Notes: generated by a model from the letters alone, not told the origin. Counted from the stretch's first letter, positions 9,658-53,155 are shown. The stretch is 64,000 bases of DNA from Gemmatimonadaceae bacterium (GCA_030647905.1 JAUSJA010000030.1:62001-126000), one strand, 5' to 3'. Translations and numbers: made by a program.

Positions 9658-9686
9658 TTGCTCCGTACAGTTCGCGAGCGTAAATA
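9658..9686 (+). promoter_or_regulatory. Candidate sigma70-type promoter for the second wzi-like gene
   Basis: TTGCTC and TAAATA hexamers are separated by exactly 17 bases in the 172-base divergent region, about 80 bases upstream of the ATG at 9766. Match by eye only. Confidence 0.35.
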
Positions 9687-9765
9687 TAGTGTCTCCGCAC
9701 GGGTACGCGCCGCGCCGATCTGTATTGACGGCGGATCCTGCAATTCTCTCGTCAGACTGCCAGTG

Positions 9766-12488: not shown

Positions 12489-12532
12489 GCGGGAGGTCTC
12501 GTGGCCTCCCGGCACGTCAGCGGACCCCACGC

Positions 12533-23121: not shown

Positions 23122-23885
23122 CCGCGCGCCACGAAGCAGGCGCCCCAGGTCGTGAAGTCGGGTGGGCCATCCGACATCCATCCGCGCGAGTCAATCAGCT
23201 TCATGCCTGCCGTTGCGAGGGCAAGCTCGATCTCCGGAGTGAAGAGGTACCGCATGCTGTGCGTCTCTCGCAGCGTCTCGCTCACGCCGGTATTTCGATC
23301 GGTCACGACCATCGTGTAGTTCACGTCCACTACGTTCGACCCGGGATGCACCACCGGCTCGGCGACGCGCCTCACCTCGGTGGACTGGTCGGAGAGATAC
23401 TTCTCGGTCGTGGCGGGCCACTGGCGCAAAACTGCCGGGCCGTACCAGCAATCGAACACGAACACGCCGCCGGGAGCGAGATGTTCGCGCGCCGTCGCGA
23501 ATGCAGCAGCGAGATCCTCATTCGACGTTTGATAGCTCATCACGTGGAACAGCGATATCACCGCGTTGAACCGCCGGCCAAGCCGCACAGTTCGCGCATC
23601 TCCGCGGGCGAAAGAAAGACGCGCCGCCACGCCTGCCTGGAGCGACCGCCGGCGCGACTCGGCGCCATCAAGCATGCCCTCGCTCATGTCCACGCCGGTG
23701 ACCTCGTACGACTGATCGGCGAGCTCGGCGGCGTGGGCGCCCGTCCCGCATCCAAGTTCGAGAACGGATCGCGCCGATGGCGCGTGAGTCTCGACGAGGC
23801 CGGCGACATAGCGGGCCTCAGCCGCGTAATCCTTGTCGCGGTAGAGAAGGTCGTAGTATCGCGAGTAGCCCGCGAAGACTGTCAA
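23118..23885 (-). CDS. Class I methyltransferase, DesVI/TylM1-like amino-sugar N-methyltransferase
   Basis: A 255-residue SAM enzyme. YYDLLYRDKDYAAEARYV followed by VLELGCGTGAHAAEL (41-55) is the N-terminal signature of the dTDP-amino-sugar N,N-dimethyltransferases DesVI, TylM1 and relatives, and FHVMSYQ and FDCWYGPAV occur in the same group. The immediately preceding gene is a sugar aminotransferase, overlapped through TTGA with a TTG start, which strengthens an N-methylation role on that amino sugar. The exact nucleotide sugar is not known. Confidence 0.82.
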   Translation of the reverse strand: MTVFAGYSRYYDLLYRDKDYAAEARYVAGLVETHAPSARSVLELGCGTGAHAAELADQSYEVTGVDMSEGMLDGAESRRRSLQAGVAARLSFARGDARTVRLGRRFNAVISLFHVMSYQTSNEDLAAAFATAREHLAPGGVFVFDCWYGPAVLRQWPATTEKYLSDQSTEVRRVAEPVVHPGSNVVDVNYTMVVTDRNTGVSETLRETHSMRYLFTPEIELALATAGMKLIDSRGWMSDGPPDFTTWGACFVARG

Positions 23886-25000: not shown

Positions 25001-25025
25001 ATCTCTGTAAGATACAACGCTGCGC

Positions 25026-36890: not shown

Positions 36891-37732
36891 GCCGGCCTCC
36901 ACAGTGGCTCGGGCGACTCGAAGTCGCCGATATCGAAGCGGCGGCCCAGCTCCTCTATTGCCGGCTCCACCCACTTCCTCGTCTTCTCGTCGAGCAACGC
37001 GAACGGATCGGCGCGCAGCTCCGCGAGCCACAGCTCGGTCAGCGCGCGCGCAGAAGCGGCGAGAACCTCGGGATGCCCTTCCACGCGCCGGCACACACCG
37101 GCGTCGATCGCCTCGTCAAGCAGTCGCGGCCAATCGTAGTCGAGACCGGTGCCGAGCGGTCTCACATGGTAGTCGAGCGAGCCCTCCACCACTGTGCCGT
37201 CGCCCATCACGACCTTCCCCGGGAAAACCTTGTCATAGCGGTACACCGGCCCGCCCGCGACACGCTCGGCGAAATGCACGATCGTGTTGTAATGGAATGT
37301 GTCTCCGTAGTACAGCACCACGCCATCACGCCGCATGAGATCCGCAAAGATCGAGTCTCCGCCGAACGGGTCGGTGTCCGGCCCCCACGCCGGCGATGGA
37401 GCGGCGCCGAGGCCGGCGACCGAGAACATCGGGATCGGGGTCCGCCACTCCGCCGCGTGCGTGCGAAAGCGCTCGGGGATCGGCCCGAGCTGCGATTCGT
37501 TGGCGACGACGTCGAATACGTGCGTCTTCGGGAAATCGTAGTTGAACGACGGCAGCCACAACGCGCGATCGCCGGCGGCATCGCGAAGAACGGCAATGTG
37601 GGAATCAAGATACGCTTCGCGGTCGCGCACTGGCTCAACGAGGCGGGTGGTGCGGAACGGATCCGAATGCACGAACACCGGGCCGCTTCCCATGGAGCCG
37701 ATCAGCTCGCCGATAAACGATGCCACGCTCAC
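36887..37732 (-). CDS. AAC(3)-family N-acyltransferase
   Basis: A 281-residue protein of the antibiotic N-acetyltransferase (AAC(3)) fold. Seen: VFVHSDPF near the N-terminus, ALWLPSFNYDFP, LGPIPERFRTH and RTPIPMFSVAGLG, all typical landmarks, followed by FADLMRRDGVVLYYGDTFHYNT. In aminoglycoside resistance these enzymes use acetyl-CoA; inside a glycan locus next to an acyl carrier protein and AMP ligase, acylation of an amino sugar is the natural guess. GTG start with GTGA overlap. I see no sign that it is a resistance gene. Confidence 0.8.
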   Translation of the reverse strand: MSVASFIGELIGSMGSGPVFVHSDPFRTTRLVEPVRDREAYLDSHIAVLRDAAGDRALWLPSFNYDFPKTHVFDVVANESQLGPIPERFRTHAAEWRTPIPMFSVAGLGAAPSPAWGPDTDPFGGDSIFADLMRRDGVVLYYGDTFHYNTIVHFAERVAGGPVYRYDKVFPGKVVMGDGTVVEGSLDYHVRPLGTGLDYDWPRLLDEAIDAGVCRRVEGHPEVLAASARALTELWLAELRADPFALLDEKTRKWVEPAIEELGRRFDIGDFESPEPLWRPA

Positions 37733-39036
37733 TTCTGCTTGAACCGGTGGCTCACCGCAACTTTGCCAATGATGACCCGGTGAGGCGAGAGCTGCTTCTG
37801 AAGGTGCGTGCGAAAGTGAGCCATGATGGCGCGGCGATCGAGCGACGCGCCATCGCGCGGCTCGACGGTGACTTCGATATGCTGGCCCGTGATCGGGTTC
37901 GGCACGCCCACCGCCTTGGCGCGCAGAACGTCGGGATGCAGCAGCGCCACACGCTCGACTTCACCGGGCAGGATCTTGAGCCCGCCGACGTTTACTATCT
38001 CCTTCGCGCGTCCGACGACCTTGATGAACTCACCGTCCTGCTCGACGATGTCGCCCGTGTCGTACCATCCGTCAACGAACGGTGACGGCGCGTTGAGATA
38101 GCCAAGCATCCGGTTGGCCGATCGCATTTGGAGCACGCCCTCCACGATCCGCGTCTCGATCCCCGTCCCGCCGATCCGCATCCACAGACTGTCGCGCGCC
38201 TTCGACTTGACCTGGAACACGCCAAGCTCGGAGAGACCGTACGTCTGCCTGAGATCCACCGCGGGCAGCTTCGCGGCGAGGCGGTCGAGTGTCCCCTGGT
38301 CCATCCGTTCGGTTCCGTAGGTGATGACGCGGAGATCGGGGAACTTCATCGCGTCGAACACGCCCGTGAGCAGCATCATGCGAAGAAATGTCGGCGTCGC
38401 CGGCAGCAGCTCTACGCGATGCTTCACCATTTCCGCGGCGATCGTCTCCGGCGTGCGCTCGGAGGGAACAATCACCACGCCCTTGTTGAACAGCGTGTGC
38501 AGCATCGTGTTGATGCCGCCGGCGTGATCGAACAGAAGGAAATTGAGCGCGCGGAGCGGAGCGCGCGGAACGGCGTAGCGCTCGAGAAAATTGTCAAAGT
38601 CGTGGAGGATCGCTTTGGGGCGACCGGTGGTTCCCGACGAGAAGAAGACAATGCCGGGGTGCCCGCTGCGGCGGAGCTCCTCGATCAGCCGATGCGCTGC
38701 GGCGGACTGCCCCCCGCGGTGCTCCAGGCGGCCACCGCGAATGATCCACTCGGCGCGACCGGTCTCGAAGAAATACTCATGGTCGGCGCTCGTCCCCTCA
38801 GTGAGAGGCATCAGGATCACGCCGCGGTCGAGCAGCTCCAGCATCGTCGCGATCGTGGGGCCGTCGAAGTCGCCGACAAGCGCCACCACCGCGCCCCGTG
38901 GAATGGCCGCGAGATCCACTCCCGGCTGCGCGGCCGCTCCGGCGATGTCATCGAAGGCGAGACTGCCGCCCGGGCCGATCAGGAAGGGCTCGTGGTTCCC
39001 GGCGTTCCGTCTGCCGAGCTCCTCGAGGATGCGCAC
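37729..39036 (-). CDS. AMP-dependent acyl ligase (ANL superfamily)
   Basis: A 435-residue adenylating enzyme, shorter than standard acyl-CoA synthetases. The P-loop FFSSGTTGRPKA is at 131-142, YGLSELG is the A5 motif, WYDTGDIV the A7 and GRAKEIVNVGG the hinge A8; the C-terminus ends with GKVAVSHRFKQK, holding the A10 lysine. It likely activates a carboxylic acid and loads it on the acyl carrier protein encoded two genes upstream. The GTG start shares a base with the SDR stop (TAGTG), consistent with coupled translation. The acyl group is unknown. Confidence 0.85.
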   Translation of the reverse strand: MRILEELGRRNAGNHEPFLIGPGGSLAFDDIAGAAAQPGVDLAAIPRGAVVALVGDFDGPTIATMLELLDRGVILMPLTEGTSADHEYFFETGRAEWIIRGGRLEHRGGQSAAAHRLIEELRRSGHPGIVFFSSGTTGRPKAILHDFDNFLERYAVPRAPLRALNFLLFDHAGGINTMLHTLFNKGVVIVPSERTPETIAAEMVKHRVELLPATPTFLRMMLLTGVFDAMKFPDLRVITYGTERMDQGTLDRLAAKLPAVDLRQTYGLSELGVFQVKSKARDSLWMRIGGTGIETRIVEGVLQMRSANRMLGYLNAPSPFVDGWYDTGDIVEQDGEFIKVVGRAKEIVNVGGLKILPGEVERVALLHPDVLRAKAVGVPNPITGQHIEVTVEPRDGASLDRRAIMAHFRTHLQKQLSPHRVIIGKVAVSHRFKQK

Positions 39037-39719
39037 TACGCGCCGCCGACGTGCATGATCTGTCCGCTGATCATCGAGCTCTCGTCCGAGAGCAGGAGCG
39101 AGAGGATGTTCCACACGTCTTCGGGTGTGCCCTGGCGCGGGATGATCTGCTGGCGGACCACTGCTTCGACCTTGTCCTTCGGGACCTTCGCGATGAGCGC
39201 CGTATCTATGGGGCCGGGGGCAATGGCATTGACCGTCACTCCGTGCGGCGCCATCTCACGGGCGAACGCGCGCGTGAATCCCTCGACCCCCGCCTTGGAC
39301 GCGACGTAGATCGCTTCACCCTTGATGGCGAGCGGCACGCCAAGTGTGGAAAAGTTGACGATGCGTCCCGATCCGCGCTTGATGAGCGCGGGTGCGACCT
39401 GCTGGCAACAGAAGATGGTGCCGAGAAGGTTTGTCTCGACAATCCGTCTCACGGTCTCCGGCGGCGTCGTCACGACGAGATTCATGGACGCGATCCCGGC
39501 GCAATTGATCAACGCGAATACGCTTTTGTCGCGCCGAAGATCGCCGAGCGCGGCAGCGATGGATGCGGGATCCGAGACGTCGGCGGCGCGCATCTCGAAG
39601 GCCGCGTCGGCTGCCGGCGTCCGGCCGACGCCGACCACGCGGTAGCCGCGGGAGTGCAGCTGGTCGGCGCAGAAGCGACCGAGCCCGCGCGACGCACCGG
39701 TGACGATGACGGTGTCCAT
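39036..39719 (-). CDS. Short-chain dehydrogenase/reductase, FabG-like
   Basis: A 227-residue classical SDR: TGASRGLG (7-14), NCAG, N97, the catalytic serine in NFSTLG (S124) and YVASK (Y138, K142), and MHVGGA at the C-terminus. FabG-type proteins reduce 3-ketoacyl-ACP; encoded between an ACP and an acyl ligase, this one could make a hydroxyacyl-ACP. The ATG directly follows the ACP stop (TAAATG). Confidence 0.88.
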   Translation of the reverse strand: MDTVIVTGASRGLGRFCADQLHSRGYRVVGVGRTPAADAAFEMRAADVSDPASIAAALGDLRRDKSVFALINCAGIASMNLVVTTPPETVRRIVETNLLGTIFCCQQVAPALIKRGSGRIVNFSTLGVPLAIKGEAIYVASKAGVEGFTRAFAREMAPHGVTVNAIAPGPIDTALIAKVPKDKVEAVVRQQIIPRQGTPEDVWNILSLLLSDESSMISGQIMHVGGA

Positions 39720-40039: not shown

Positions 40040-41542
40040 TCATTTCGTGCAGATGAGCAGCGACCGCGTTTCGGGGTGCGACGCTACGACCTCGACGCTC
40101 CCGAAGTGCGACCCGAGCGCAGCCATGAGATTCTCCCGCGTGTACCACCCGAACGATCCCCGGGCCGCGTTCCAGGCCGGAAAGAACCCAGGATCGCTGG
40201 TGATCATCTGGTCGTCCATGTCCACGAACTCGACGCAAAGATACTTCGTCGAGAGGCGGCCGAGTATCGCGGCGATGGCCTCGAAGGTCAGGGCCTGGCC
40301 CAGCGCGAGGTGGTGGACGATCGCGAGGGCGAGGACCAACTCGCACTGGAGCCGCTCATCGGGGGGCGCGACGACCGGCGCGCCATCGCCGATGAGCGAC
40401 AGCGATGGCTCGTTCTCGTACACCCTCGGATAGAGCGGCGGCAGCGGTGCGGTGAGATTCGCGACCAGCGGCAGGATGTCGAGCCGCTCCCGGCGGGCAT
40501 CGCCGAACAGGCGGTCGATCGAGGCCTCGTCGAGGTCCACCGCGACGACCGAGCTGCCGAGCCTGGCGGCGAGCATCGAGAACCATCCCGTATTGCTGCC
40601 GAGGTCGAGGACAGTGCGCGGGTTGAGCCGCGTGAGCGTTTCGTGCACGCCGCGCTGCTTGTCCGTCCAGTCGTCGCTCGGGGTCGCCGCGAACACCTCC
40701 TTCTTGTCCTCGTAGTAGCTGCTGTATGCGCTGCCTTTCAGGGCCGCCTTTCTCGACGCGATGATGTGCCGCAGCCGGCGGAAGAAGCGCGGCTTTTGCG
40801 GCCCCTTCTCCACAAGAGTGACGAGAAGCCATCGCGCCTCGACCTCGTACATCACGCGGTCGGCGAACGATCCTTCGAACGCCTCCTGCCGCGTGATCAC
40901 CGACTCCGACGCATTGAGCGTAGTCTCGTAGATGCGGCGCCTGGCCTGCGCGTGCAGGCCGCGATGCATCATCATCAACGGAAGCCCGAAGTACGGCTCG
41001 AACATCAGGCGGTACATCTCGTAGATCGCTTTCGACGTCTCGTCCCACAGGGCGCCGATCCCCTCGGGAGGCCGTCCCGACTGGAGATGGGGCTGCTTCG
41101 GCAGATCGGAGATCGGGATGATGGACGTGAAGTCCACGAACACCGGACGGGTCCCCGAGAACAGGATGTTGTGCGGGTGCCAGTCCTTGATCGTGAGGCC
41201 GTGCTCCTCGAGCCGCTCGTAGAGTGCAATGTGGAGCAGCGCCGCCTCGCCGAACATCGCGGCCGACCATTCGTGCGGATACGTGACGAACGGAATTCGC
41301 TCGTGCTCGAGCACCATTTCGTACGCCAGCCCGGGGTGCGGATTCTCCGCCAGCTCGCGCGTCGGGACGATGCCGTGGCTGAAGAGATCGTGCTCCTCGC
41401 AAACGCGGAGCACCCGGCGCACGGTGTCCGCGTGTCCGCTGTAGATGCCGCGAAGAACGCGGTCGCCGCTCACGAATGGCTCGCCGGCAGTATCGAATCC
41501 GACGAGGCGCGTCACCTGCGCGGATGTCCGGGCTGCGGTCAC
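40040..41542 (-). CDS. Kinase-like domain fused to a SAM methyltransferase
   Basis: A 500-residue two-domain protein. The first third carries IKDWHPHNILF (118-128) and VFVDFTS (135-140), equivalent to the catalytic and metal-binding loops of aminoglycoside/LPS kinase folds; I do not see a clear N-lobe lysine or glycine loop, so this part may be degenerate. The second part has motif I TVLDLGSNTGWFSML (310-324) and VVAVDLDE. A kinase plus methyltransferase in one chain recalls the O8/O9a chain terminator WbdD, although WbdD has the methyltransferase first. GTG start, GTGA overlap. Confidence 0.78.
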   Translation of the reverse strand: MTAARTSAQVTRLVGFDTAGEPFVSGDRVLRGIYSGHADTVRRVLRVCEEHDLFSHGIVPTRELAENPHPGLAYEMVLEHERIPFVTYPHEWSAAMFGEAALLHIALYERLEEHGLTIKDWHPHNILFSGTRPVFVDFTSIIPISDLPKQPHLQSGRPPEGIGALWDETSKAIYEMYRLMFEPYFGLPLMMMHRGLHAQARRRIYETTLNASESVITRQEAFEGSFADRVMYEVEARWLLVTLVEKGPQKPRFFRRLRHIIASRKAALKGSAYSSYYEDKKEVFAATPSDDWTDKQRGVHETLTRLNPRTVLDLGSNTGWFSMLAARLGSSVVAVDLDEASIDRLFGDARRERLDILPLVANLTAPLPPLYPRVYENEPSLSLIGDGAPVVAPPDERLQCELVLALAIVHHLALGQALTFEAIAAILGRLSTKYLCVEFVDMDDQMITSDPGFFPAWNAARGSFGWYTRENLMAALGSHFGSVEVVASHPETRSLLICTK

Positions 41543-43203
41543 GCCGCTCCGACCTCGCGCTCGGAGAGGGCGACCAGATCCTCCGTCATGTTGAAGTCGC
41601 GGCCATCCACCAGCCGGTCGCAGACGAACTCGATGAACGCATCCTTCCCGGGCAGCAGCAGCTCACGCTTCTCGTGCTGGAGCCCCCACCACTCGGTGCG
41701 TGGATCGTGCACGATCTCGAGCGGGATCTGCCGCTGGATGAAGTGCGAGTATGCGTACTTGCGCACGTCACGCCGCTGCTGATCGGTAAGACGTCCGAGA
41801 CGCGACGCGCCCTTCAGGAACCGGCGGTAGGTGATAGGCGTCATTCCTTCGTGCGCAAAGCCGAGCCCGCCGTAGTGCGCCTCGCCGGCGAGAATCACCG
41901 GCTTGCCCATGAGCGCGAGTTCGAGACCGGCAGTGCCGTACACCGTGACGCCGCCATCTATCAGCTCGAACATGTTGGCCGGGCTGATGTCCTCTTCCGC
42001 TGGAATGACCCGCACGTGGTCGGGCAGCTCGGGGAATTCCCGCTCGATCAGTCGCTGGACGCCGCTGGCGGGGTTATCCCACGCCTCGATCGGATGGATC
42101 TTGATCAGCCACTGAACGTCGGGGATCTCGATGGCGTGGCGAATGGTGTCTATCATCCAGTCGTCGAACGACGGATACGCCATCGGCGCGTAGTCGGACA
42201 CGCTGTCCCAGTTGATATGGGCAAGCACGGCGAAAACGGGCTTGTCGGTGGGCGCGTACTTCTTCTTCAGCTCGCTGACGTCCTGGCGATAAGTCTTGAT
42301 GTGCTTCATGTCGAAGCTGATCTGCCGGTGGTAGCGGTCCTCGAAGAACTTGTCGAGTCGGGCGTTCTCCCGCGGCGAGAGCTCGCGGCTCCTGATGTCC
42401 TCCCAGCAGGCGCGGCTCAGCTTCTTGAAATCAATGCGCGAGGGGTCCTCGACGTGGCGAAGGTAGAAATGCCACGAGAGATACGACGCCTTCCACCCGG
42501 TCACGGGGATGCCGCGCTCGAACGCGGTGTGAATGGCGGGGCCCCAGTCTATGTAAGTGCCGTGCGACATGAATACGCGCCACGGATTGAACCGGTCGAG
42601 CGCGCGGGCGGCGGCGCAGGCGGACACGAGCCCGCTGTACGCATACTCGCGCACGATCGCCTCGTGGCCCGTCAGCGCGGCACCCTGGAGGTATCGCACG
42701 ACAGACGAACGCACGTTCTTCCCGACGTTCAGGCCGTTGTAGGAGAGCGTGTCGAGTGTGTCCCACGTCACGTCGGCGGTGCTCTGCCAGAGCTCGTCGC
42801 GCTCCGCGTCCGTCAGGAAATCACCGTTGTAAGAGTACGGAATTCCCATCTGCTCGAGCACAGCGCTCGTCTTGCGCGTGCAGGTCAGGCAGGCGTCGCG
42901 CCATTTCGCGATCGGCACTCCCTCCTGCACGGTGCGGATGGCACAGCCGCGGTAAGGCGCATTGCAGATGATGGCGTGGACGTCATACCCGCGCAGCTTC
43001 ATCGCCGCGGCGATGGATGCCTCGACATGCAGAAGCAGCGGCATGCCCCCCGGTACCCAGAAGAGAAGCGTTCCCTTCGACTGATCAATGTCGCGGCCAT
43101 GCTTGTACAGCTGAGCCATCTTCCGCGTGCGGTGCTCTTCGGTGTGCTTGAAGAGCGCCTGCACCAGCAGCGGCGATTTCTGGATTGCGATGTGCGCGGC
43201 CAT
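41539..43203 (-). CDS. Capsule polysaccharide biosynthesis protein, KpsC/KpsS-like
   Basis: A 554-residue cytoplasmic GT-B-like protein. The C-terminal half has VQWLIKIHPIEAW, the pattern GGVTVYGTAGLELALMGKP and VILAGEAHYGGLGF, which characterise capsule-synthesis proteins that include the beta-Kdo transferases KpsC and KpsS. A cluster of four cysteines in the N-terminal third (CNAPYRGC ... CLTC) could bind metal. I used the ATG at 43203; TTG at 43242 would add 13 residues. Its GTGA coupling to the kinase-methyltransferase fusion suggests work at a chain end. Confidence 0.75.
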   Translation of the reverse strand: MAAHIAIQKSPLLVQALFKHTEEHRTRKMAQLYKHGRDIDQSKGTLLFWVPGGMPLLLHVEASIAAAMKLRGYDVHAIICNAPYRGCAIRTVQEGVPIAKWRDACLTCTRKTSAVLEQMGIPYSYNGDFLTDAERDELWQSTADVTWDTLDTLSYNGLNVGKNVRSSVVRYLQGAALTGHEAIVREYAYSGLVSACAAARALDRFNPWRVFMSHGTYIDWGPAIHTAFERGIPVTGWKASYLSWHFYLRHVEDPSRIDFKKLSRACWEDIRSRELSPRENARLDKFFEDRYHRQISFDMKHIKTYRQDVSELKKKYAPTDKPVFAVLAHINWDSVSDYAPMAYPSFDDWMIDTIRHAIEIPDVQWLIKIHPIEAWDNPASGVQRLIEREFPELPDHVRVIPAEEDISPANMFELIDGGVTVYGTAGLELALMGKPVILAGEAHYGGLGFAHEGMTPITYRRFLKGASRLGRLTDQQRRDVRKYAYSHFIQRQIPLEIVHDPRTEWWGLQHEKRELLLPGKDAFIEFVCDRLVDGRDFNMTEDLVALSEREVGAA

Positions 43204-43262
43204 CCGCGCATACCGGTTCAAGGATTTCAGAGGAGAGCGCAAATTTCAGTGGATTTGGTTGT

Positions 43263-43310: not shown

Positions 43311-44162
43311 TCAACCCTGCGGTACCCAGGCAATCACCGACGCCGCGAGAAGCGGGTTCGGACCGAAGGCAGGAGAACTCTCGGCGATGATCTTGAGCGA
43401 GCCCCGCGCCTCGTGATCGTGCAGAATGGTCACCAGATTCCGGTTGTATCCGTTGGCCTGAATATAACGCCGCCTGAGAAGGCCCAGCAGGGTGCTTTCG
43501 TCGCAATGTTCATAGACGGGCTCCACGTGCACCACCGCCGCCGGACGGAGCGCGGACAACCCCTCGACGAACGCGTCGCCGATGGGCTCGATGTACTGGG
43601 CCGCATAGGCCGTAAAGACGGTGCTGCCCTCGGGGATCGTGATCCCCGCCGTGCGACCCGAGGCGAGATCGCACCACCCGGTCGAGAGCGCCGTCCCCTC
43701 CCGACTCGCGATCGCCGCGGCAAGCTCGGGGCCGGTCGAAGTGCAGTCGGCGGCAAATAGCGGGATGCCGGCGAATTCGGCCCGCCGCGCGAGCCCCAGG
43801 ATCACACTTCCGTAACCGCAACCGAGCTCGACCAGCCCGGCCGCATTCAGATGCGGCTGGAGCGCCCCCGCGACGATGTCCAGATAAGCCGCGTGCGATT
43901 CCTCCGGCGTCATCAGCACAAGGTCGTCGCCCAGCGCCACCAGAGTCTCCTTCGGATCCCCCGCCGCCCATCGGTCCACTTCGTCGAGCCCCGCCCCCGG
44001 ATTCTTTCTGAATCGCTCGAGAAGCTCGCCCCATTTCTCCCGGCCGAACTCACGCTCGATCTCATCCGGAGTCCTCCGCTTCTCCGGCCATGGCTCAAGG
44101 CCGAGCAGCCGCGCCGGCCAGGGCGAATATTTCGGAAGATCGTCGAGCGGACGGAGCTTCAT
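43311..44162 (-). CDS. Class I SAM-dependent methyltransferase
   Basis: A 283-residue protein with a roughly 90-residue N-terminal extension (PKYSPWPARLLGLEPW, then a helical region) before motif I GLVELGCGYGSVILGLA. The last third ends VIAWVPQG. The layout resembles methyltransferases of glycan loci found with NeuB-like genes, but no substrate can be named. ATG start, five bases after the aminotransferase stop. Confidence 0.8.
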   Translation of the reverse strand: MKLRPLDDLPKYSPWPARLLGLEPWPEKRRTPDEIEREFGREKWGELLERFRKNPGAGLDEVDRWAAGDPKETLVALGDDLVLMTPEESHAAYLDIVAGALQPHLNAAGLVELGCGYGSVILGLARRAEFAGIPLFAADCTSTGPELAAAIASREGTALSTGWCDLASGRTAGITIPEGSTVFTAYAAQYIEPIGDAFVEGLSALRPAAVVHVEPVYEHCDESTLLGLLRRRYIQANGYNRNLVTILHDHEARGSLKIIAESSPAFGPNPLLAASVIAWVPQG

Positions 44163-44167
44163 GATGA

Positions 44168-45451
44168 CTACCGGGTAGCGGGTAGCTGGTACCGGTTCTC
44201 GTACACCTTCTCGAACGCGGTTACGACGTCCATCAAGTCCGCCTCAGTCATGCTGGCGTGGATGACGTCGGTGCACATAAGCTCCTTGTAGTACAGCCGC
44301 TCGATCACCGGGCAGATTCCCGGCTCGTAGCTGACCGTGCCCTTCCAGCCGGGATAGGTGAACGGAAACCCGTCCTTTCCGAAGGCAATGCGCTTCTGGT
44401 ACATGGGCTCGAGATAGATCGGCTCGGTGTACCCCTTCACCATCGGGATCCCCTCGGCGTTGAGCGCATCCACGAACCGGTCGCGCGAAACACCGACGAC
44501 ATCCTCGTCGAACCTCAACGCGTACCGGTAATACCCGTGCATGACGCCCTCCTTCACGACCGGCGTGCGCAGTCCGGGGAACAATCTCAGCCGCTCCGTC
44601 AGAAACTCAGCGCACGCCACGCGCGGCGGATGCAGCGCCGGCAGCTTCCTGAGCTGCTCGATGCCGATCGCCGCCTCTATCTCCGTCATGCGATAGTTGA
44701 ACCCGACGAGGTTCACGATGTCCTCGACACCCATGTCCTTCACCACCACTTCACCGTGGTTGCGGATCAGCGCCAGGCGATCGGCCAATCTTGCATCGTC
44801 GGTGACTACAACTCCGCCTTCACCGGTGTGAATCGTCTTGTGATAGTTGAGACTGAACACACCCATGTGGGCGAGCGTGCCGGCGTGCCGCCCGTTGTAC
44901 GTCGCACCGGGAGCCTGCGCCGCATCCTCGATCACGACGAGGTTCCGCTCACGCGCGATCTCCATTATCCCGTCAATGTCGGCCGGATGGCCGAGCAGGT
45001 CCACGACGATGATCGCCTTCGTGTACGGACTGAGGCGCTGGCGGATCGTTTCGGGAGTGATGCAGAACGTGTCCTCGTCTATGTCGGCAAATACGGGAAT
45101 CGCGCCGTAGACGATTGCCGCCGATGCCGAGGCCGTCATCGTGTACGGCGAGACGATGACTTCGTCTCCCGGCCCCACTCCCGCCGCGCCGACCGCGGCG
45201 TAGAGACCCGACGTCGCGGCGTTGACGGACACCGCGTGCTTCACGCCAAAGAACGCTTCCCAGTCGCGCTCCAGCCGCTGCACATTCGTCCCGCCGTGGA
45301 ACGCGGGCGACCATGTGCCGAGAAATCCGGAAAGCTCTCCGCTGTCGAGCACCGCGGCGACCGCGCGCTTTTCCTCTTCGCCGATGGTGTTGTACCGTGG
45401 GAATGGCGTGGTGCGGACGGGTGTGCCGCCGTTGATCGCGAGCCGGCTCAC
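44168..45451 (-). CDS. DegT-family aminotransferase
   Basis: A 427-residue PLP enzyme, longer than the other two in the window. The N-terminus LAINGGTPVRTTPFPRYNTIG is the longer type seen in many DegT proteins; the PLP lysine is K205 in LNYHKTIHTGEGG and VIEDAAQAPG the PLP-ring aspartate. The GTG start overlaps the dehydrogenase stop (GTGA). Being coupled to a Gfo/Idh dehydrogenase, it would aminate the ketone that enzyme makes, as in dehydrogenase-aminotransferase pairs of amino-sugar synthesis. Confidence 0.85.
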   Translation of the reverse strand: MSRLAINGGTPVRTTPFPRYNTIGEEEKRAVAAVLDSGELSGFLGTWSPAFHGGTNVQRLERDWEAFFGVKHAVSVNAATSGLYAAVGAAGVGPGDEVIVSPYTMTASASAAIVYGAIPVFADIDEDTFCITPETIRQRLSPYTKAIIVVDLLGHPADIDGIMEIARERNLVVIEDAAQAPGATYNGRHAGTLAHMGVFSLNYHKTIHTGEGGVVVTDDARLADRLALIRNHGEVVVKDMGVEDIVNLVGFNYRMTEIEAAIGIEQLRKLPALHPPRVACAEFLTERLRLFPGLRTPVVKEGVMHGYYRYALRFDEDVVGVSRDRFVDALNAEGIPMVKGYTEPIYLEPMYQKRIAFGKDGFPFTYPGWKGTVSYEPGICPVIERLYYKELMCTDVIHASMTEADLMDVVTAFEKVYENRYQLPATR

Positions 45452-46491
45452 GACGTGGCGCTCACCGCGCCCGCCCGCGTCAGGGTGACGACTTCCCCCT
45501 CGTTTCGCGCGGACTGGTGGGCCGCGAGTGCAATTCTCAGCGCTTCCAATCCGTCCTCGCCCGATGACTGCGGCGCCGAGCCGGTGGCAAGACACGCCAC
45601 GATGTCTTCGACGGCGTGCAGCATCACGTCCTTCCGGTCGCCCATGTTCACCGATGATGGGGCGAGCTCGACATAGCCGCTGTAGCGCGGGCTCGGCATC
45701 GCCGTCGCGATATCCACGCGATACGACGAGTCCACTATCTGCGCTCTGCCGCGCGATCCCATGATATCCATCTCGCAAATGGTGAAGTTGGCGACCTCCG
45801 CCGCGCGCATGGTCGCGACCATGCCGTTCGACATGCCGAGCGCGACGTCGAGCGTCGGATCGGCGCCACCCTCGCGAAGAATGTCTTTCGCCGATACCCA
45901 CTCGACTTCGCCCACGAGATAACGGAGGAGGTCGAACCAGTGCGTGCCGTTGTGCACCGTGCCTTTCGTGAGCCAGCCCGAAACGCCCCGCAGCTCACCG
46001 ATGCCGCCGTCGCGCAGAAAGCGCCTCAGGTTCTGCATGTTCCGCGCGTAGCGGCGCAGGTGCATCACCACCAGCAGCGTGCCCCGCTCCCGCGCCAGCC
46101 CCACAAGGCGCTCCGCCTCGTACAGCGTCGAAGCCAGCGGCTTTTCACAGAGCATCGCGAGCGGCGCCTGTTCGGCCCTGAGAATCTGCGACGCCACGGT
46201 GAAGTGCGTCGGCGTTGGAGTGGCGACGCTCACGATCTCCGGACGTACCGATGCCATCAGATCCGCGACGGCGCTGAAACGCGCGCTCACTCCCCACCGC
46301 TCGCCGCAACGCTCGAGCGCGGCCGGGTCGGAGTCCGCGATCGCCACCAGGTCCGTCTCGGGGCATTGCTGATACGCCTCGGCGTGAGAGAACACGTCTC
46401 CTTTCATCAGCCGGTCGTCGGCGAAGTCGCTGCCGATCTTTCCGCAGCCGATCAGCGCCGCCCTGTAGGGTGGCCGGCCTGGCACCGTCAT
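45448..46491 (-). CDS. Gfo/Idh/MocA-family NAD(P)-dependent sugar dehydrogenase
   Basis: A 347-residue oxidoreductase. Rossmann motif ALIGCGKIGSDFAD at residues 11-24, ATPTPTHF, the family lysine in CEKPLAST, and HNGTHWFDLLRYLVGE in the C-terminal substrate domain. Family members oxidise a ring hydroxyl of sugars or inositols. It lies between a cytidylyltransferase and an aminotransferase with 4-base overlaps on both sides, implying oxidation then transamination of one sugar. Confidence 0.88.
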   Translation of the reverse strand: MTVPGRPPYRAALIGCGKIGSDFADDRLMKGDVFSHAEAYQQCPETDLVAIADSDPAALERCGERWGVSARFSAVADLMASVRPEIVSVATPTPTHFTVASQILRAEQAPLAMLCEKPLASTLYEAERLVGLARERGTLLVVMHLRRYARNMQNLRRFLRDGGIGELRGVSGWLTKGTVHNGTHWFDLLRYLVGEVEWVSAKDILREGGADPTLDVALGMSNGMVATMRAAEVANFTICEMDIMGSRGRAQIVDSSYRVDIATAMPSPRYSGYVELAPSSVNMGDRKDVMLHAVEDIVACLATGSAPQSSGEDGLEALRIALAAHQSARNEGEVVTLTRAGAVSATS

Positions 46492-47225
46492 GAGCGAACG
46501 TCTTTCTGCCGGATGTTGCGGTTCAAATCAATCAGATCAGAACGGCGTTCGAGAAGATTCAGCACGTCGGCGAGAGTGAACGCGGGATTCGCGGGGTAGA
46601 GCTCGTCGTAGATCGCGCGCACGAGCTCGAGGTCTTCGTCCGTGTCCACGGTGAGTCGCAGCGATGCCGCAGCTTCGGGAAAATCGGTCCCGACGTTTCT
46701 GCAACGATAGCGCTCGGGATGCTCCCAGAAGTGAACCGAGACGTGCTCGTGATCCGCCGGATCTGTGGATGTGGCGTTGATCTCCGCGAGGTCGGCGGCG
46801 CGAAACACGCGCACGTCCGTGCCGCGCGGGGTCGTATGCGGCAGGATGTTGCTGACGAAATCCGCGCCGCCCATGAGAAAATTGCCGACGACCTTGTCCA
46901 CCAGGCCGGGATCCACGAGCGGGCAGTCACCAGTCAGCTCGACGATGATATCCGCGGAGCGGGCGTCCGCCGCGCGGACTACGCGATCCAGCACGTCGTC
47001 TTCGCTTCCGCGAAAGACATGCGCGCCAATCCTCTGCGCGTATGCGGCGAGCCGGTCGTCCGCCGGGTCGTCTGTCGTCGCAATCACGATCTCGTCAATC
47101 GTCCTTGCGCGCCGCAGCCGCTCGACCATGCGGCCGAGCATCGGCTCGCCGAGGATCGGCATGAGGACTTTACCGGGGAGCCGGGTGGCGTTGAAGCGCG
47201 CCTCCACGATGCAGACGATCCTCAT
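46488..47225 (-). CDS. SpsF-type cytidylyltransferase (copy 1)
   Basis: A 245-residue nucleotidyltransferase of the CMP-Kdo-synthetase-like SpsF family. VEARFNATRLPGKVL is the nucleotide-binding signature, HVFRGSEDDVLDRVV and ELTGDCPLVDP follow as in the family. ATG at 47225 is the start adjoining the first strand; ATGs at 47240 and 47267 are longer options. Expected to activate a sugar acid with CMP, or another nucleotide. Confidence 0.82.
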   Translation of the reverse strand: MRIVCIVEARFNATRLPGKVLMPILGEPMLGRMVERLRRARTIDEIVIATTDDPADDRLAAYAQRIGAHVFRGSEDDVLDRVVRAADARSADIIVELTGDCPLVDPGLVDKVVGNFLMGGADFVSNILPHTTPRGTDVRVFRAADLAEINATSTDPADHEHVSVHFWEHPERYRCRNVGTDFPEAAASLRLTVDTDEDLELVRAIYDELYPANPAFTLADVLNLLERRSDLIDLNRNIRQKDVRS

Positions 47226-47250
47226 CGGGTCGGCGCCCATTCGATGCGGC

Positions 47251-47991
47251 TCACCCCTCGGTGACATGCTTCGGCCTCAGATGCGAGTTGATATCGGCCA
47301 GTTCCGGCTCGCGCTCGATGAGACTCACAACGTCGAGCCAGCTGAAGTCGTTGCCGCCGCCGAGCCGCGCGTAAACCCGCCGCGCAAACTCGAGATCCAC
47401 CGGCGTATCCACAGTCCACCGCCAGGCGTGGCGATCAATGCCGGTCGTCACCGGGACGAGCCGGAACGCCGCCGGATTGTCGTACATGTACACGGTGACG
47501 TGCGAGCGCTCGAAACTTTCCGTCGCCTCGCGCCATGCGCGATCGAGCGCGCCACGCGAGAACACCTCGACGTCGAGCCCCAGCGGGAAGCTCGGCTCAA
47601 GCTTGTTGCTCGCATAATCCGCCGCGGGCTCGGCAGCTCGATAACTGGCGATGGCCTGGTCGCAGACGTCGGGATCCACGAAAGGCGAATCGGCGCAGAT
47701 GCGGACGATGACGCCGGCACCGAGACTTTCCGCGGCATCGTGAAAGCGGCCGAGCACGTCCTCCTCGCTCCCTCTCGTTACGCGGACGCCGAGCAATTCC
47801 GCCGCCTCCGCGACCGCATCGTCGGCGGGGTTGACGGTGGTTGCCACTACCACCTCGTCCACGAGCCGGGATCGCCGGACTCGTTGCACGACCCTCGCCA
47901 GCATGGATTGGCCCGCAATATCGAGGAGGACCTTGCCGGGGAGGCGCGACGAAGTCATTCGCGCCTGGATGATAGCGATCGTGGGGAGCAC
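47251..47991 (-). CDS. SpsF-type cytidylyltransferase (copy 2)
   Basis: A 246-residue paralogue of the next gene with the cleaner family signature IIQARMTSSRLPGKVL, then RVTRGSEEDVLGRFHDA and CADSPFVDP. The GTG at 47991 lies one base after the NeuB-like stop; an ATG at 48015 would overlap that gene. Two adjacent copies in a NeuB-type cassette suggest activation of two different sugar acids or one heteromeric enzyme. Confidence 0.82.
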   Translation of the reverse strand: MLPTIAIIQARMTSSRLPGKVLLDIAGQSMLARVVQRVRRSRLVDEVVVATTVNPADDAVAEAAELLGVRVTRGSEEDVLGRFHDAAESLGAGVIVRICADSPFVDPDVCDQAIASYRAAEPAADYASNKLEPSFPLGLDVEVFSRGALDRAWREATESFERSHVTVYMYDNPAAFRLVPVTTGIDRHAWRWTVDTPVDLEFARRVYARLGGGNDFSWLDVVSLIEREPELADINSHLRPKHVTEG

Positions 47992-47992
47992 G

Positions 47993-49057
47993 TCAGGCTT
48001 TCGATTCAAGATCAACCTGGGTTGATCTTCCGCTTGCAGTTACCGGCATGAGGTCCTCCCACTGAAGTACATGATCCCGCGACAGATCCCGTGCTGCGCA
48101 CCGCCCGATCACCTCATCCCAGTGCACCGGGCTCACCCCCGTCCCCGGCCGCTTGTACGTGAGCATCTCCTCGCGCAATTCGGTCCCCGCTGAGACGTCC
48201 GCATCGAGCACGATGCTCCGCCGCGCGTTCAGCCGCGAGATCTCTTCCGTCTCGATTGATTCGACCTCCGCCTTCCTCCCGATCATCGAGTCGAGCCGCG
48301 CCACGTACACGCGGAACCGCTTGAGATCGTCCACGTCCATCGCGTGGTAATGGTCGTTTCCCGGCAGCGTCTTGTCGTGCGTGAAGTGCTTCTCGATCAC
48401 CCGTGCACCCAACACGAATGCCGTGCACAGCGCGGTCATCCCGTCGTCGGGAACGGTGTGATCGGAATAGCCGATGAGCAGCTCGGGATACTCGGCGCGC
48501 AGCGCAGTGATCATCCCCAGATGCGCGTTCTCGTCAGCGGTCGGATAATTGAGCACGCAATGCAGCAGCGACAGCTCTTCGCACCCCGCGTCGCGAAGCG
48601 TCTTCACCGCATCCCGCACTTCGTCGGAAGTGGACGCGCCAGTCGAGAGAACGACGGGCTTCCCCGTCTCCGCCACCTGTCGCAGCAGCGGAGTATTCGT
48701 GAGATCGGCAGACGCAATCTTGAAGAACGGCATCAGCGGGTCCAGCAGCTCCACCGCCGACTTGTCGAATGGAGTGGAGACGAAATCGATCCCCACCTCC
48801 TCGCAGTGCTTCGCCAGCTCGCGATACTCGTCCGGCCCGAACGAATCGTACTTCTGGAAGAGCCGGAACTGGCTCGTCGTCGGCTCCCTCGTTAGATCCC
48901 AGTACGCCGGGCTGTGCTTCGACGCCAGCGTCTCCGCCTTGTACGTCTGGAACTTCGCCGCGTCCGCGCCGCCTTCCTTCGCCAGGTCTATCAGCCTCTT
49001 CGCCAGCTCCAGCGACCCTTCGTGATTCACCCCGATCTCGGCAATGACATAAGGCAT
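47993..49057 (-). CDS. NeuB-family ulosonic acid synthase with SAF domain
   Basis: A 354-residue enzyme, the usual size. The TIM-barrel entry VIAEIGVNHEGS, KFQTYKAETLA, FKIASADLTN and the C-terminal SAF (antifreeze-like) domain from RSIVLDADVSAGTEL are all present. NeuB enzymes condense phosphoenolpyruvate with a hexosamine-like aldose. The active-site loop reads KTLPGNDHYHAMD instead of the GPDH pattern of sialic, legionaminic and pseudaminic synthases, hinting at another substrate. Start at ATG 49057; a GTG at 49072 is possible, while the more upstream frame runs through a low-complexity repeat. Confidence 0.87.
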   Translation of the reverse strand: MPYVIAEIGVNHEGSLELAKRLIDLAKEGGADAAKFQTYKAETLASKHSPAYWDLTREPTTSQFRLFQKYDSFGPDEYRELAKHCEEVGIDFVSTPFDKSAVELLDPLMPFFKIASADLTNTPLLRQVAETGKPVVLSTGASTSDEVRDAVKTLRDAGCEELSLLHCVLNYPTADENAHLGMITALRAEYPELLIGYSDHTVPDDGMTALCTAFVLGARVIEKHFTHDKTLPGNDHYHAMDVDDLKRFRVYVARLDSMIGRKAEVESIETEEISRLNARRSIVLDADVSAGTELREEMLTYKRPGTGVSPVHWDEVIGRCAARDLSRDHVLQWEDLMPVTASGRSTQVDLESKA

Positions 49058-49095
49058 CGAATCATCGGTCACAACCCGCGCCCCAAGGTGGATCT

Positions 49096-49127
49096 CTCTG
49101 CGCCTCTGCGTCTCTGCCCTCTCTGCG
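49096..49127. repeat. CTCTGCG low-complexity tandem repeat
   Basis: Four copies of CTCTGC(G/C) at 49096, 49104, 49112 and 49121, spaced eight to nine bases, in the gap between the NeuB-like gene and the upstream GT2 gene. It makes the apparent N-terminal extension of the NeuB frame an artefact. Confidence 0.75.
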
Positions 49128-49136
49128 TTCTCGTCC

Positions 49137-49814
49137 CTACCCATGGCCGTTGACCTTCTCCAGTCCGTGCTTGGCCTCGAGCTGATTCAGATAGCCGTTC
49201 ATCGCGCCGTGATCGTTGGTCATGTTCTCGTCGTGGCGGCGATAGCGGTACAGCGGCAGCGCGACCCGGTGGATTCTGTACTTCTCGAGGAAGCGGATGC
49301 GCAGGTCCTTGTCCTCGTGCAGCAGGAACTGCTCGTCGTACAGTCCGAGCTCCACCAGCTGGTCAATGCGGAACATAATGCCGCAGCCGATCGGCTTCTC
49401 CTCGCAGTTCATGCGCTCGATCACTTCGTCGTTGTCCTCCACGAGGTGATAGTCGCACGCCACCGCGTCCATCCACGGATTGAGCGTGAGATGCATCGAG
49501 AGAATGTTCAGGTACTCCGTGTGCACGTAGTCGTCGCCGTCAATCCGCACGACGAACCGGCCGCGCGCCGACCGGATGCCGATGTTGAGCGAGCCCGGAA
49601 GCCCCTTCCGTTCGTCGTTGTGAATCAGCCGGATCTTGTGCTCGAATTGCTCAAGTGCGAATCGCGTGCGGTCCGTGCTCGCGTCGTTCACCACGATCAC
49701 TTCGTAGTCGCCGCTCGGGTACGTCTGGTTGAGGATCGACCGTATGCACCGGCCGATGTAATTCTCCTGGTTGCGTACTGCCACGACCAGCGAGACGGTT
49801 GGCATGTGTGTCAT
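49137..49814 (-). CDS. Family 2 glycosyltransferase
   Basis: A 225-residue compact GT-A enzyme: [28 protein letters not shown], metal motif [10 protein letters not shown], and [16 protein letters not shown]. It lacks membrane segments. Its position directly before the NeuB-like cassette suggests it could use the sugar made there, or that it adds the neighbouring residue; the sequence does not decide. Confidence 0.85.
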
Positions 49815-49824
49815 TCGATGTCGC

Positions 49825-51165
49825 TCAGCGAACGATTTGTGGGCGCTTCATTGGAGTACGGGGCTTCTCGCCGGACGCGCCGGGGAGCGGCTCCTCGACC
49901 GTCATGCGCGACGGAAGCGAGAAGACGCCGAGCGGCCTCGACGGGTCGAAGTTGTCGTGCAGCACGCGCGACCCCGCGACAATGACAAGGGGCGGCGTGA
50001 GATCGTCGAGCACGTCGTAATTCTTCGGAGACTGGAGAGATTCGCTCACGTGCAGGTACAGCGGATACTCGCCCGGCCGGATGTACACGCTCGGCAGGTC
50101 AACCACGACGGTCGAAGTCGTTCCCGGCGAGACGAGCGCCCCGGTGACGACGTGCCGCGCGGAGGTCACGAGCTCGCGCGACATCCCCGAGCGGATCCCG
50201 ACGAATATCGCCAGCCCGCGCATCGGCGCGTGAACCGTGAACGTGAGGCGGAACCGCACAGTGTCGCCCATCGCGAACGTGTAGCGCTCGTTCCCGTCGA
50301 GATCCTCGACCGACACCGCCGTGAATCGCACCGCGCCGGAGCCGCGGCGGTTCTCCGGATTGTTCACCCCGGTCTCCGCATCCACGCGCAGCTCGCGCAG
50401 CCGCTGGTTGTAAACGGCGAGCGTTGAATCCGTGGGCCCGTCGGCGGCGACACGACCGTGCTCAAGCAGAATCCCGCGCGTGCAGAGCTGCCGCACCGCC
50501 TGCGTGTTGTGGCTCACGAAGAACACCGTGCGCCCCTCGCCCGCCACGTCCTCCATCTTGCCGAGGCATTTCTTCTGGAACTCGGCGTCACCTACCGCCA
50601 GCACCTCGTCCACAAGCAGTATCTCCGGCTCGAGATGCGCGGCTACAGCGAATGCGAGCCGCGTGTACATGCCGCTCGAGTAGCGCTTGGTCGGCGTATC
50701 TATGAACTGCTCGACCCCGGCGAAATCCACGATGGCGTCGAACTGCCGCGCGATCTCCGACTTCCGCATGCCGAGGATGGCGCCGCTCAGGAAGATGTTC
50801 TCGCGGCCCGTGAGCTCGGGATGGAACCCCGTCCCGACTTCGAGCAGCGCGCCGACGCGTCCGTAGATCTCGGCGCGCCCCCGCGTCGGCTCGGTGATCC
50901 GCGACAGGATCTTGAGCAAAGTGCTCTTCCCCGCTCCGTTGCGCCCGATTATCCCGACGACCTCGCCCTCCATCACCTCGAACGAGACGTCATCCAGCGC
51001 CCAGAACGTCTCCATCGTGTCGGACCGGCCAAGCGCGCGCTTCCACAGGTTCTTCGGCAGCGCGATGACTTCTTCCTGAAGCGTGCGGTACGGCTGGCGT
51101 CCGAGCGCCCGCGCTATGCGGTACGATTTCGCGAGCCCTTCGACCTTGATCGCCGTCTGGCTCAT
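49825..51165 (-). CDS. wzt: Wzt-like polysaccharide ABC transporter ATP-binding protein with C-terminal glycan-binding domain
   Basis: A 446-residue ATPase. Walker [10 protein letters not shown] (74-82), signature [12 protein letters not shown], Walker [14 protein letters not shown] and the switch His in VSHN. From about residue 250 a beta-rich domain follows, equivalent to the Wzt C-terminal domain that in E. coli O8/O9a recognises the modified chain end before export. The ATG overlaps the permease stop (ATGA). This domain implies that finished polymer with a specific cap is selected for transport. Confidence 0.93.
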
Positions 51166-52034
51166 ACCGCGTCCGCGAAGCCGCGCTCTACCCGGCGGAA
51201 GAAGAAGGCGCCGCCGACGAACACCGCCAGAGACAGAACGGTGGTGATCCCCACGATCGCCGGCGTTATGGAACTGGTGCCGAGCACCGACCAGCGGGCG
51301 CCTTCAATGAAGGCGACAGCCGGATTCAGACTGTAGTACAGCCGCCACTTCTCGGGCACGATCGTCGTCGCGTAGGCTACCGGACTGGCGAACATCCACA
51401 CCTGGAGCAGGAACGGCAGCGCGTGCACGAAATCGCGGTACTTCACGTTGAGCGCGGACAGCCAGAGACTCACCCCCGTTGCCGTGACCGCGGTGAGCGC
51501 GATGAAGAACGGAAGCGCCAGCAGCCGCCACGTCGGCGATATGCCATAGAAGATCATGAACACCGCCAGCACGCCAAGCGATACCAGCAGGTCGAGCATC
51601 GCCGAGAAGGTGCTGGCGAGGGGAATCGCCAGTCGCGGGAAATAGACCTTGGTGATGAGCCGCTGGTCGGTGATGAGACTGTTGCCGGCGCGCTGCAGCA
51701 CAGCGGCGAAGTAGTTCCACACCACCACGCCGCTGAAGACGAACACGAGGTAGGGGTGCCCGTCGCTCGGCAGCTTCGCGAAGCGGCCGAACATCACCGT
51801 GAAGATGAGCGCGGCCACAAGCGGCTGAAGCACCACCCACGTGATGCCGAGCCCGGTCTGCTTGTACCGCAGCTTGATGTCGCGGCCGGCGAGGATCATC
51901 AGCAGGTCGCGGTACGTCCACAGCTCGCGGAGGTTGAGGGCCGACCAGCCGCTGGTCGGCTCGATGACCACGGTCGGTCGGCGGACAGCGGCGGGCGGGC
52001 GGTTCTGGCCGGGGAACGTCGCAGGCGCCGTCAC
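51162..52034 (-). CDS. wzm: Wzm-like polysaccharide ABC transporter permease
   Basis: A 290-residue inner-membrane permease of the ABC-2 family with six hydrophobic segments; LLMILAGRDIKLRYKQTGLG and WVVLQPLVAALIFTVMFG are the hallmark first cytoplasmic loop and first helix, and NVKYRDFVHALPFLLQVWMF the later signature. It exports lipid-linked polymer across the inner membrane with Wzt. The GTG at 52034 overlaps the Wzz-like stop (GTGA); the alternative start at 52076 lies further inside that gene. Confidence 0.93.
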   Translation of the reverse strand: MTAPATFPGQNRPPAAVRRPTVVIEPTSGWSALNLRELWTYRDLLMILAGRDIKLRYKQTGLGITWVVLQPLVAALIFTVMFGRFAKLPSDGHPYLVFVFSGVVVWNYFAAVLQRAGNSLITDQRLITKVYFPRLAIPLASTFSAMLDLLVSLGVLAVFMIFYGISPTWRLLALPFFIALTAVTATGVSLWLSALNVKYRDFVHALPFLLQVWMFASPVAYATTIVPEKWRLYYSLNPAVAFIEGARWSVLGTSSITPAIVGITTVLSLAVFVGGAFFFRRVERGFADAV

Positions 52035-53155
52035 GCTTTGCGCCGCGAGCCGAAAGCCCGCGCAAGAGGCCGCCACGGATGCGTGAGGTCGCCCATCGCC
52101 TCATGCCTCAGTGCGGCAAACTCCACGAACTCGTCTGATTGCGACGCGCTGCCACGGGCCATCCGGTCGCGCCCGAACGCGAGAAGAGATCCGAGCACCA
52201 GCCCGATCAGAATGCCGATGGCGGTCTTCCGCACGCCGCCGCGCGAGTCGGGACCGATCGGCAGCTCCGGCGCCTCGATGACCGTGATCACCGGCAGGTC
52301 GCGCACCTCTTCGATGCGCGCCGTTTCATACGCGCTCAACAGGCTCGAGTAGATCTGGTTCCGCATGTCCACCTGCCGCTGCAGCCGTCCGTACTCAAGT
52401 ACGAGCTGCGGCGAGTACCTGTACTGGCGGTTCCCCTCGAGGAAGCTCTCCAGCTCCGACTCCGCCTGGCGAAGCTCGGCGCGCTTCTCCCCGAGCTGCC
52501 GCTCGACGAAGGCGCGATCGAGCGATGCCAGGTTCTGCCGCTGCGACAGGTTGTAGATGTTAACCTGGTCCAGAAGGTTCTGCGCGATCTGGAGCGACAG
52601 CTCCGGATTCGCGGTGGCCACGCTGACGGAGATGACACCGGTCTTTGCCGCCAGTGTCGAGCGGATCGCGCCCTTGAGCGCGCTGATCACCTTCGCCTTC
52701 CGTACGGCAGGGCGAGGATCCCTGATGTTGAAGATCTTCTCCAGATCGCCGCTCACCACTCCCGTGTCGGTCCTCATCCGGTACGTCTTCTCCGCCACCG
52801 GCCACAGCAGCGACCTCGTCTCGAGCAGGTCGGTGTAGAGCTGCGGATTGCTGGACGGATCGCCGCTGCCAAGGTTGATGCCGAACTGCGCCGCGATACC
52901 GCCGAGCTGGCCCTGGCCTCGCGCGCCCCTGGGCATGAACTTCGCCTCAGTCGTGTAGTACCTGGACGACGTGACGCTCCGCGCGCCGGCGTACGCGCCG
53001 ATGGCGAGCGCGAGCGTGACGATCATCACGCGATGGCGCAGCAGCACGTTCATCAGGCTCACCGCGGATATGTCCTTCTCGTTTTCTTCCGGAGCGCCGG
53101 CGATCTGCGGCGCCGCAGGAACGCTCAGCGGTTGCGTCGCGCGGGGGCTGGTCAA
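52031..53155 (-). CDS. Wzz/GNVR-type chain-length protein (copy 2)
   Basis: A 374-residue polysaccharide co-polymerase with transmembrane segments near residues 40-60 and 315-335 and a long coiled-coil-like region (RAFVERQLGEKRAELRQAES). The segment VITVIEAPELPIGPDSRGG precedes the last helix, as in Wzz proteins. No kinase domain. The only start near the fold is a TTG at 53155 overlapping the fcl stop as TTGA. It lies directly before an ABC exporter, an unusual place for a protein that normally tunes Wzy-made chains, although related co-polymerases such as KpsE also serve ABC-type capsule export. Confidence 0.83.
   Translation of the reverse strand: MTSPRATQPLSVPAAPQIAGAPEENEKDISAVSLMNVLLRHRVMIVTLALAIGAYAGARSVTSSRYYTTEAKFMPRGARGQGQLGGIAAQFGINLGSGDPSSNPQLYTDLLETRSLLWPVAEKTYRMRTDTGVVSGDLEKIFNIRDPRPAVRKAKVISALKGAIRSTLAAKTGVISVSVATANPELSLQIAQNLLDQVNIYNLSQRQNLASLDRAFVERQLGEKRAELRQAESELESFLEGNRQYRYSPQLVLEYGRLQRQVDMRNQIYSSLLSAYETARIEEVRDLPVITVIEAPELPIGPDSRGGVRKTAIGILIGLVLGSLLAFGRDRMARGSASQSDEFVEFAALRHEAMGDLTHPWRPLARAFGSRRKA

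Follow-up and report, generated by a model that had tools for sequence, protein, structure and literature searches.

A NeuB-type operon of a Gemmatimonadaceae bacterium proposed to make a CMP-activated amino-ulosonic acid

What sugar might be made by an operon that combines a NeuB-type synthase with two cytidylyltransferases, a dehydrogenase and an aminotransferase, but lacks the hydrolase expected upstream of such a synthase? We address this question for a stretch of 64,000 nucleotides from a Gemmatimonadaceae bacterium (GCA_030647905.1, JAUSJA010000030.1:62001-126000; the window), in which an earlier note had described five coupled genes; they lie on the minus strand. Their coupling is borne out, since each product scores above its Pfam cut-off and the reading frames overlap at all four junctions. 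In the direction of reading, the genes encode a NeuB-family synthase with a SAF domain (47993-49144, or from the ATG at 49057; PF03102, 257.5 bits, and PF08666), the cytidylyltransferases SpsF1 (47251-48015; PF02348) and SpsF2 (46488-47267; PF02348), a Gfo/Idh/MocA-family dehydrogenase (45448-46491; PF01408) and a DegT-family pyridoxal phosphate-dependent aminotransferase (44168-45451; PF01041). An ATGA junction couples SpsF2 to Gfo/Idh and a GTGA junction couples Gfo/Idh to DegT, the DegT gene probably starting at the GTG at 45451, which overlaps the Gfo/Idh stop codon. The boundary had been drawn one gene too short: directly 5' of NeuB and overlapping its start, also on the minus strand, lies a sixth gene (49137-49814) for a short protein of 225 amino acids from glycosyltransferase family 2 (GT2; PF00535), with intact DxDD and HED motifs. 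We judge the chances to be evenly balanced that this operon makes a cytidine monophosphate (CMP)-activated ulosonic acid for an exported surface polysaccharide, with Gfo/Idh and DegT adding an amine. To judge from sequence, the product is most likely an acidic, sialic-acid-like surface sugar made by a synthase from a widespread NeuB branch. By the membership tests described below the operon is neither a standard legionaminic (Leg), pseudaminic (Pse) nor neuraminic (Neu) acid cluster, and we take it, with moderate confidence, for a CMP-ulosonate pathway that differs from those described. No account of this gene set was found in the literature.

The synthase itself fits the NeuB/SAF ulosonate synthase family, with a PF03102 barrel, a C-terminal SAF domain and the phosphoenolpyruvate (PEP) and metal residues present. 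Conserved in it are K53, Q55, T110, K129, S132, S154, Y186, H215, H236, D247 and R314 of Neisseria meningitidis NeuB, which we take to be the PEP, metal and Asp247 positions. Its best match in the PDB is SpsE, and it falls below the NCBIfam cut-offs both for NeuB (324 vs 399.65 bits) and for PseI (251 vs 340.25 bits). The active-site loop reads GNDHYHAMD in place of GPDH, as had been noted, and this is a signature of a whole clade and no one-off: 79 of the 81 members share GNDHYH, and not one of the 16 references has it. As one of the seed peptides was NDHYHAMD, members recovered with other seeds were counted separately, and 23 of these 24 carry GNDH. Eight other NeuB proteins from Gemmatimonadota have GPDH or GWDH and lack GNDHYH. 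In a tree of 80 rows the window NeuB groups with two Gemmatimonadota copies (99% support in the Shimodaira–Hasegawa-like approximate likelihood ratio test, SH-aLRT, used throughout) within a 64-row clade (99%) that leaves out five PseI, two LegI and three Neu-type references as well as SpsE. The references were chosen by gene context or PDB entry, the two LegI references by context, and the border of the clade is partly determined by the search, because its members were collected by similarity. By loop and by monophyly with the rows of loci L004-L083 the window NeuB thus belongs to the GNDHYH clade, and the phylogeny that had been proposed as a check places it with neither LegI nor PseI. The clade also differs from N. 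meningitidis NeuB in its pocket (N184 to Leu, E134 to Asp and P246 to Asn), changes that fit a different aldose substrate. Two further PF03102 matches in the genome were rejected as second synthases, as they are 3-deoxy-D-arabino-heptulosonate 7-phosphate (DAHP) synthases. A GNDHYHAMD NeuB (L132, 146-1219) is also encoded, with a DUF4910 gene, near the end of a 98 kb viral contig, IMGVR_UViG_3300017971_000228.

The neighbourhood of this clade was compared in 80 named loci from 12 phyla. Relatives of the window NeuB usually adjoin the same GT2 gene and an SpsF gene, and often a close homologue of KdnB, which in Shewanella oxidizes Kdo at C8, with GT2 being the most constant neighbour. Among the 69 loci with sufficient upstream sequence, which are not mutually independent, NeuB is accompanied by GT2 alone in 50, by a PseG-like gene alone in 14, by neither in five and by both in none. 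An iron-containing alcohol dehydrogenase is present in 31 of the 40 GT2 loci for which a long stretch of upstream sequence was available; its best PDB matches are 3rf7 (E 2.1e-90) and KdnB 5k8c (E 3.5e-89), the next reaching 88.7 bits, and a second copy, from a locus with a different type of aminotransferase, again matched KdnB. In 21 of these 40 loci there is an aminotransferase for which KdnA 5k8b is the top match (E 3.6e-88). The comparison with the Shewanella pathway for 8-amino-3,8-dideoxy-D-manno-octulosonic acid (Kdo8N), drawn in the earlier note, is therefore apt, since true KdnB and KdnA homologues adjoin the relatives of the window NeuB. KdnA-KdnB pairs were also found without NeuB in another Gemmatimonadota family (L145, L146, L147 and L148, of which two adjoin a distant cytidylyltransferase), and these are probably Kdo8N sets. 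Occurring both with and without NeuB, KdnAB seem to have ulosonic acids generally as their substrates. In acIV-type Actinobacteria (L027, 2380-9784) the cluster opens with genes for an HpaI/GarL-family pyruvate aldolase, a Gfo/Idh protein and an inositol-phosphatase-family protein, and KdnB, KdnA, GT2, NeuB and SpsF come next.

From these results we infer a starting sugar, an order of steps and a site of amination as follows. NeuB would condense phosphoenolpyruvate with a free aldose, and SpsF1 would use cytidine triphosphate to convert the product to its CMP form. Gfo/Idh would oxidize a hydroxyl of the acid to a carbonyl, which DegT would replace with an amine to give an amino-ulosonate, and SpsF2 would activate the latter. 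GT2 might release the aldose from a nucleotide sugar, thereby standing in for PseG or NeuC, or else act as a transferase; a Capsule_synth-family protein encoded nearby may transfer the activated sugar, and the ATP-binding cassette (ABC) exporter would move the finished glycan. An 8-amino-pentadeoxy nonulosonic acid has been described in the O-polysaccharide of Flexibacter maritimus (PMC3210612), hence side-chain amination of an ulosonate has a natural precedent. The boldest step is GT2 as supplier of the aldose, a guess prompted by the exchange with PseG in the same slot and by the missing hydrolase.

Nearly as probable as an even chance is that GT2 is a plain glycosyltransferase that attaches the sugar, the free aldose coming from a phosphatase or a housekeeping enzyme. 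The AlphaFold2 model of GT2 (predicted local distance difference test score, pLDDT, 93.6) is closest to 6p61, a glycosyltransferase orthologue from Leptospira borgpetersenii with 62% identity, for which no published function was found in the literature searched. In structure GT2 comes closest to true transferases and SpsA, and the GT-A fold is a common one by which transferase and hydrolase are not separated; the inositol-phosphatase-family protein in the operon of acIV-type Actinobacteria clusters would be consistent with a phosphatase as the source of the aldose. This explanation is opposed by four loci with KdnB- or KdnA-type genes and a PseG-like gene (L017, L061, L062 and L081, L061 and L062 being from one genus), from which GT2 is missing, as expected if GT2 and PseG do the same job. 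More tentative is the wider proposal of an undescribed and widely distributed route to CMP-activated amino-ulosonic acids, in which the GNDHYH NeuB uses an aldose freed by a GT-A-fold enzyme in place of a NeuC/PseG hydrolase and either KdnB-KdnA or Gfo/Idh-DegT aminates after condensation; we consider this rather doubtful.

Next to the identity of the aldose stands the question of why there are two SpsF genes. Both are present, as the earlier note said, and they are no recent tandem duplicate: SpsF1 falls with the copy that is linked to NeuB in the nearest relative (L004_9102; 99%), whereas SpsF2 falls with copies linked to Gfo/Idh in L077, L091 and L092 (97%). Because they belong to different clades, the pair reflects two joined modules, and the operon looks like a GT2-NeuB-SpsF1 core joined to an SpsF2-Gfo/Idh-DegT module. 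The expectation of a single five-gene set recurring in other genomes did not hold, as the second module also accompanies other types of NeuB, including a full Pse set. Relatives of DegT that are 48-65% identical were found in L017, L023, L058, L077 and L092-L094, and the order NeuB, SpsF, Gfo/Idh, DegT is repeated in L017, L023, L058, L077 and L094. In the two Gemmatimonadota Pse clusters, L092 and L093, the Gfo/Idh-DegT module likewise lies directly 3' of a NeuB-family gene; these differ from the window in carrying PseB, PseC and PseI above curated cut-offs. L093 additionally has PseF and PseG, and L092 has both types of SpsF along with flagellin and a tetratricopeptide repeat protein. The module is not a simple replacement for KdnAB, as both kinds co-occur in L023 and L058. 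With its nearest relative, L004, the window has the exporter, GT2, NeuB and SpsF1 in common; in place of the module L004 has an aldo-keto reductase, an SpsF-aminotransferase fusion and HisH/HisF-type genes. The fusion, of 704 amino acids (region 9102-15524, with the HisH/HisF-type genes), joins SpsF to a class III (glutamate-semialdehyde type) aminotransferase, and the HisH/HisF-type genes resemble those of acetamidino modification.

Two unrelated sugars would be an alternative outcome of such a modular arrangement: GT2-NeuB-SpsF1 would make an ulosonic acid and SpsF2-Gfo/Idh-DegT a separate amino sugar, both being joined in one glycan. Amino nucleotide sugars are the products of known Gfo/Idh and DegT pairs, among them WbpB/WbpE and GnnA/GnnB. 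The occurrence of the module with several NeuB types, including the full Pse set of L093 with its own PseF, points in the same direction, as does an acetyltransferase-like gene that comes after it in some loci. Conversely, most copies of the module hold a CMP-transferase-family gene, which would be needless in a route through uridine diphosphate (UDP)-sugars, and in L017 and L023 the only SpsF adjoining NeuB is that of the module. Moreover, no copy of the module lay away from NeuB in the search of the class: a query with Gfo/Idh alone matched in five of 295 genomes, that of the window included, and all five matches, those in L092 and L093 among them, adjoin a NeuB-family gene. We think it rather unlikely that two separate sugars are made.

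The absence of precursor enzymes was assessed across the genome, which is 98.6% complete. As claimed earlier for the cassette and window, the hydrolase step is missing: profile searches of the whole genome found neither a NeuC/LegG hydrolysing epimerase nor a PseG/SpsG-type hydrolase, the PseG model being able to detect the proteins of Bacillus subtilis and Caulobacter. The best match to the NeuC model is a WecB-type protein of an N-acetyl-L-fucosamine (L-FucNAc) operon (65 bits vs a cut-off of 235.9), and the sub-cut-off matches to NeuC and PseB on contig C25 were set aside as part of an FnlA-FnlB-FnlC-type L-FucNAc set. PseB, PseG and PseI are likewise not found above cut-off in the genome. 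The statement that the window has no PseB-like dehydratase goes too far. A PglF/WbpM-type membrane 4,6-dehydratase is encoded at 55544-57454 on the plus strand (PF02719), its best NCBIfam match being PseB at 186.9 bits, below the cut-off of 407.75, and it could possibly provide a 4-keto-6-deoxy precursor. A LegC-like aminotransferase at 23882-25237 on the minus strand (TIGR04181, 342.7 bits, cut-off 420) may possibly be a precursor enzyme as well. On contig C11 a LegB-family dehydratase scores above its cut-off beside a sugar-1-phosphate nucleotidyltransferase, a short-chain dehydrogenase/reductase (SDR) and a GT4 glycosyltransferase, with neither LegC nor LegG beside it. Thus the claim that there are no canonical precursor enzymes stands for the hydrolases and is unproven for the dehydratase and aminotransferase. 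The same contig holds a truncated FnlA/PseB-like frame, interrupted by a stop codon, beside rhamnose genes (L125, 8458-9015).

The B. subtilis sps pathway proceeds from the PglF-like SpsM through SpsC, SpsD, SpsG, SpsE and SpsF (PMC7439481). The operon resembles it in its NeuB-family synthase, SpsF, DegT, nearby PglF-type dehydratase and GT2 (SpsA in the sps operon), but differs in lacking an SpsG-type hydrolase, in its extra Gfo/Idh and second SpsF, and in the clade and loop of its NeuB. A legionaminic-like pathway of this kind, with a PglF-type dehydratase (as SpsM), a LegC-like or DegT aminotransferase (as SpsC), an unrecognized acetyltransferase and hydrolase, NeuB (as SpsE) and SpsF yielding an ordinary diamino-nonulosonate, is unlikely: the dehydratase and the LegC-like gene in the same polysaccharide region, the SpsE match and the LegB-family gene favour it, but the hydrolases are missing from a nearly complete genome, the tree separates NeuB from the LegI references with high confidence, the LegB-family gene has another setting, and KdnB adjoins most GT2-linked relatives of this NeuB.

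In the Shewanella Kdo8N pathway, KdnB, an iron-containing alcohol dehydrogenase, and KdnA, a DegT aminotransferase, carry out on a 3-deoxy-ulosonic acid the oxidation and transamination that we propose here. The window genome differs in having no KdnB (best match 25% identical, 25.7 bits), a Gfo/Idh oxidase, a NeuB rather than KdsA synthase, and a DegT nearer to other families, with KdnA ranking seventh at 172 bits vs 204 for the top match. The operon would work like the Kdo8N pathway but, as KdnB is absent, does not belong to it. The KdnB-KdnA/GT2-NeuB-SpsF clusters of Actinobacteria, Proteobacteria and Spirochaetes (among L004-L083) share its NeuB clade, GT2 and SpsF, and have KdnB, often with KdnA, instead of or alongside Gfo/Idh-DegT.

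Several observations weigh against the pathway proposed here. The exchange of GT2 and PseG counts for less because the loci are not independent, and the GT-A fold and motifs of GT2 are those of an ordinary glycosyltransferase. As the Gfo/Idh-DegT module also adjoins the complete PseBCFGI set of L093, its product may be a partner sugar of its own, the ulosonate being left untouched; the usual companion of the module, the GT-B-like gene c53, was not found in the window genome. In addition, with a PglF-type dehydratase and a LegC-like aminotransferase nearby, the precursor could still be legionaminic-like. Were the proposed amino-ulosonate pathway correct, a NeuB branch from 12 phyla, with members in Prochlorococcus, SAR11 and freshwater Actinobacteria, would make surface sugars now annotated as sialic acid. 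It would also point to genes that may underlie ulosonic acids aminated in the side chain, for instance the 8-amino nonulosonate of F. maritimus, for whose biosynthesis genes no description was found in the literature searched.

Around the operon is a polysaccharide region that also contains an ABC exporter, guanosine diphosphate (GDP)-fucose genes and glycosyltransferases. The ATPase and permease genes of the transporter (49825-52076, minus strand), labelled as Wzt/Wzm type from the look of their sequences and synteny with L004, are 82-84% and 79-84% identical to their counterparts in L004 and L005, and the transporter is the probable export route for the glycan. Downstream, at 43311-44162 on the minus strand, is a protein that matches no family in Pfam or NCBIfam; relatives sharing 44% and 36% identity with it also lie 3' of the DegT gene in L058 and L093, and we would guess it to be a methyltransferase. 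The Capsule_synth-family protein (41539-43242, minus strand; PF05159, E 3.3e-7), of which L004 has a 78% identical copy, is the candidate transferase of the activated sugar; its AlphaFold2 model, built from two sequences (pLDDT 51.7), is too poor for a test of the fold. Further 3' of the cassette, the minus strand at 35610-39719 encodes a DUF4910/DUF2172 aminopeptidase-like protein, an AAC(3)-like acetyltransferase, an AMP ligase and an SDR protein. DUF4910 genes also adjoin NeuB in many loci of the clade.

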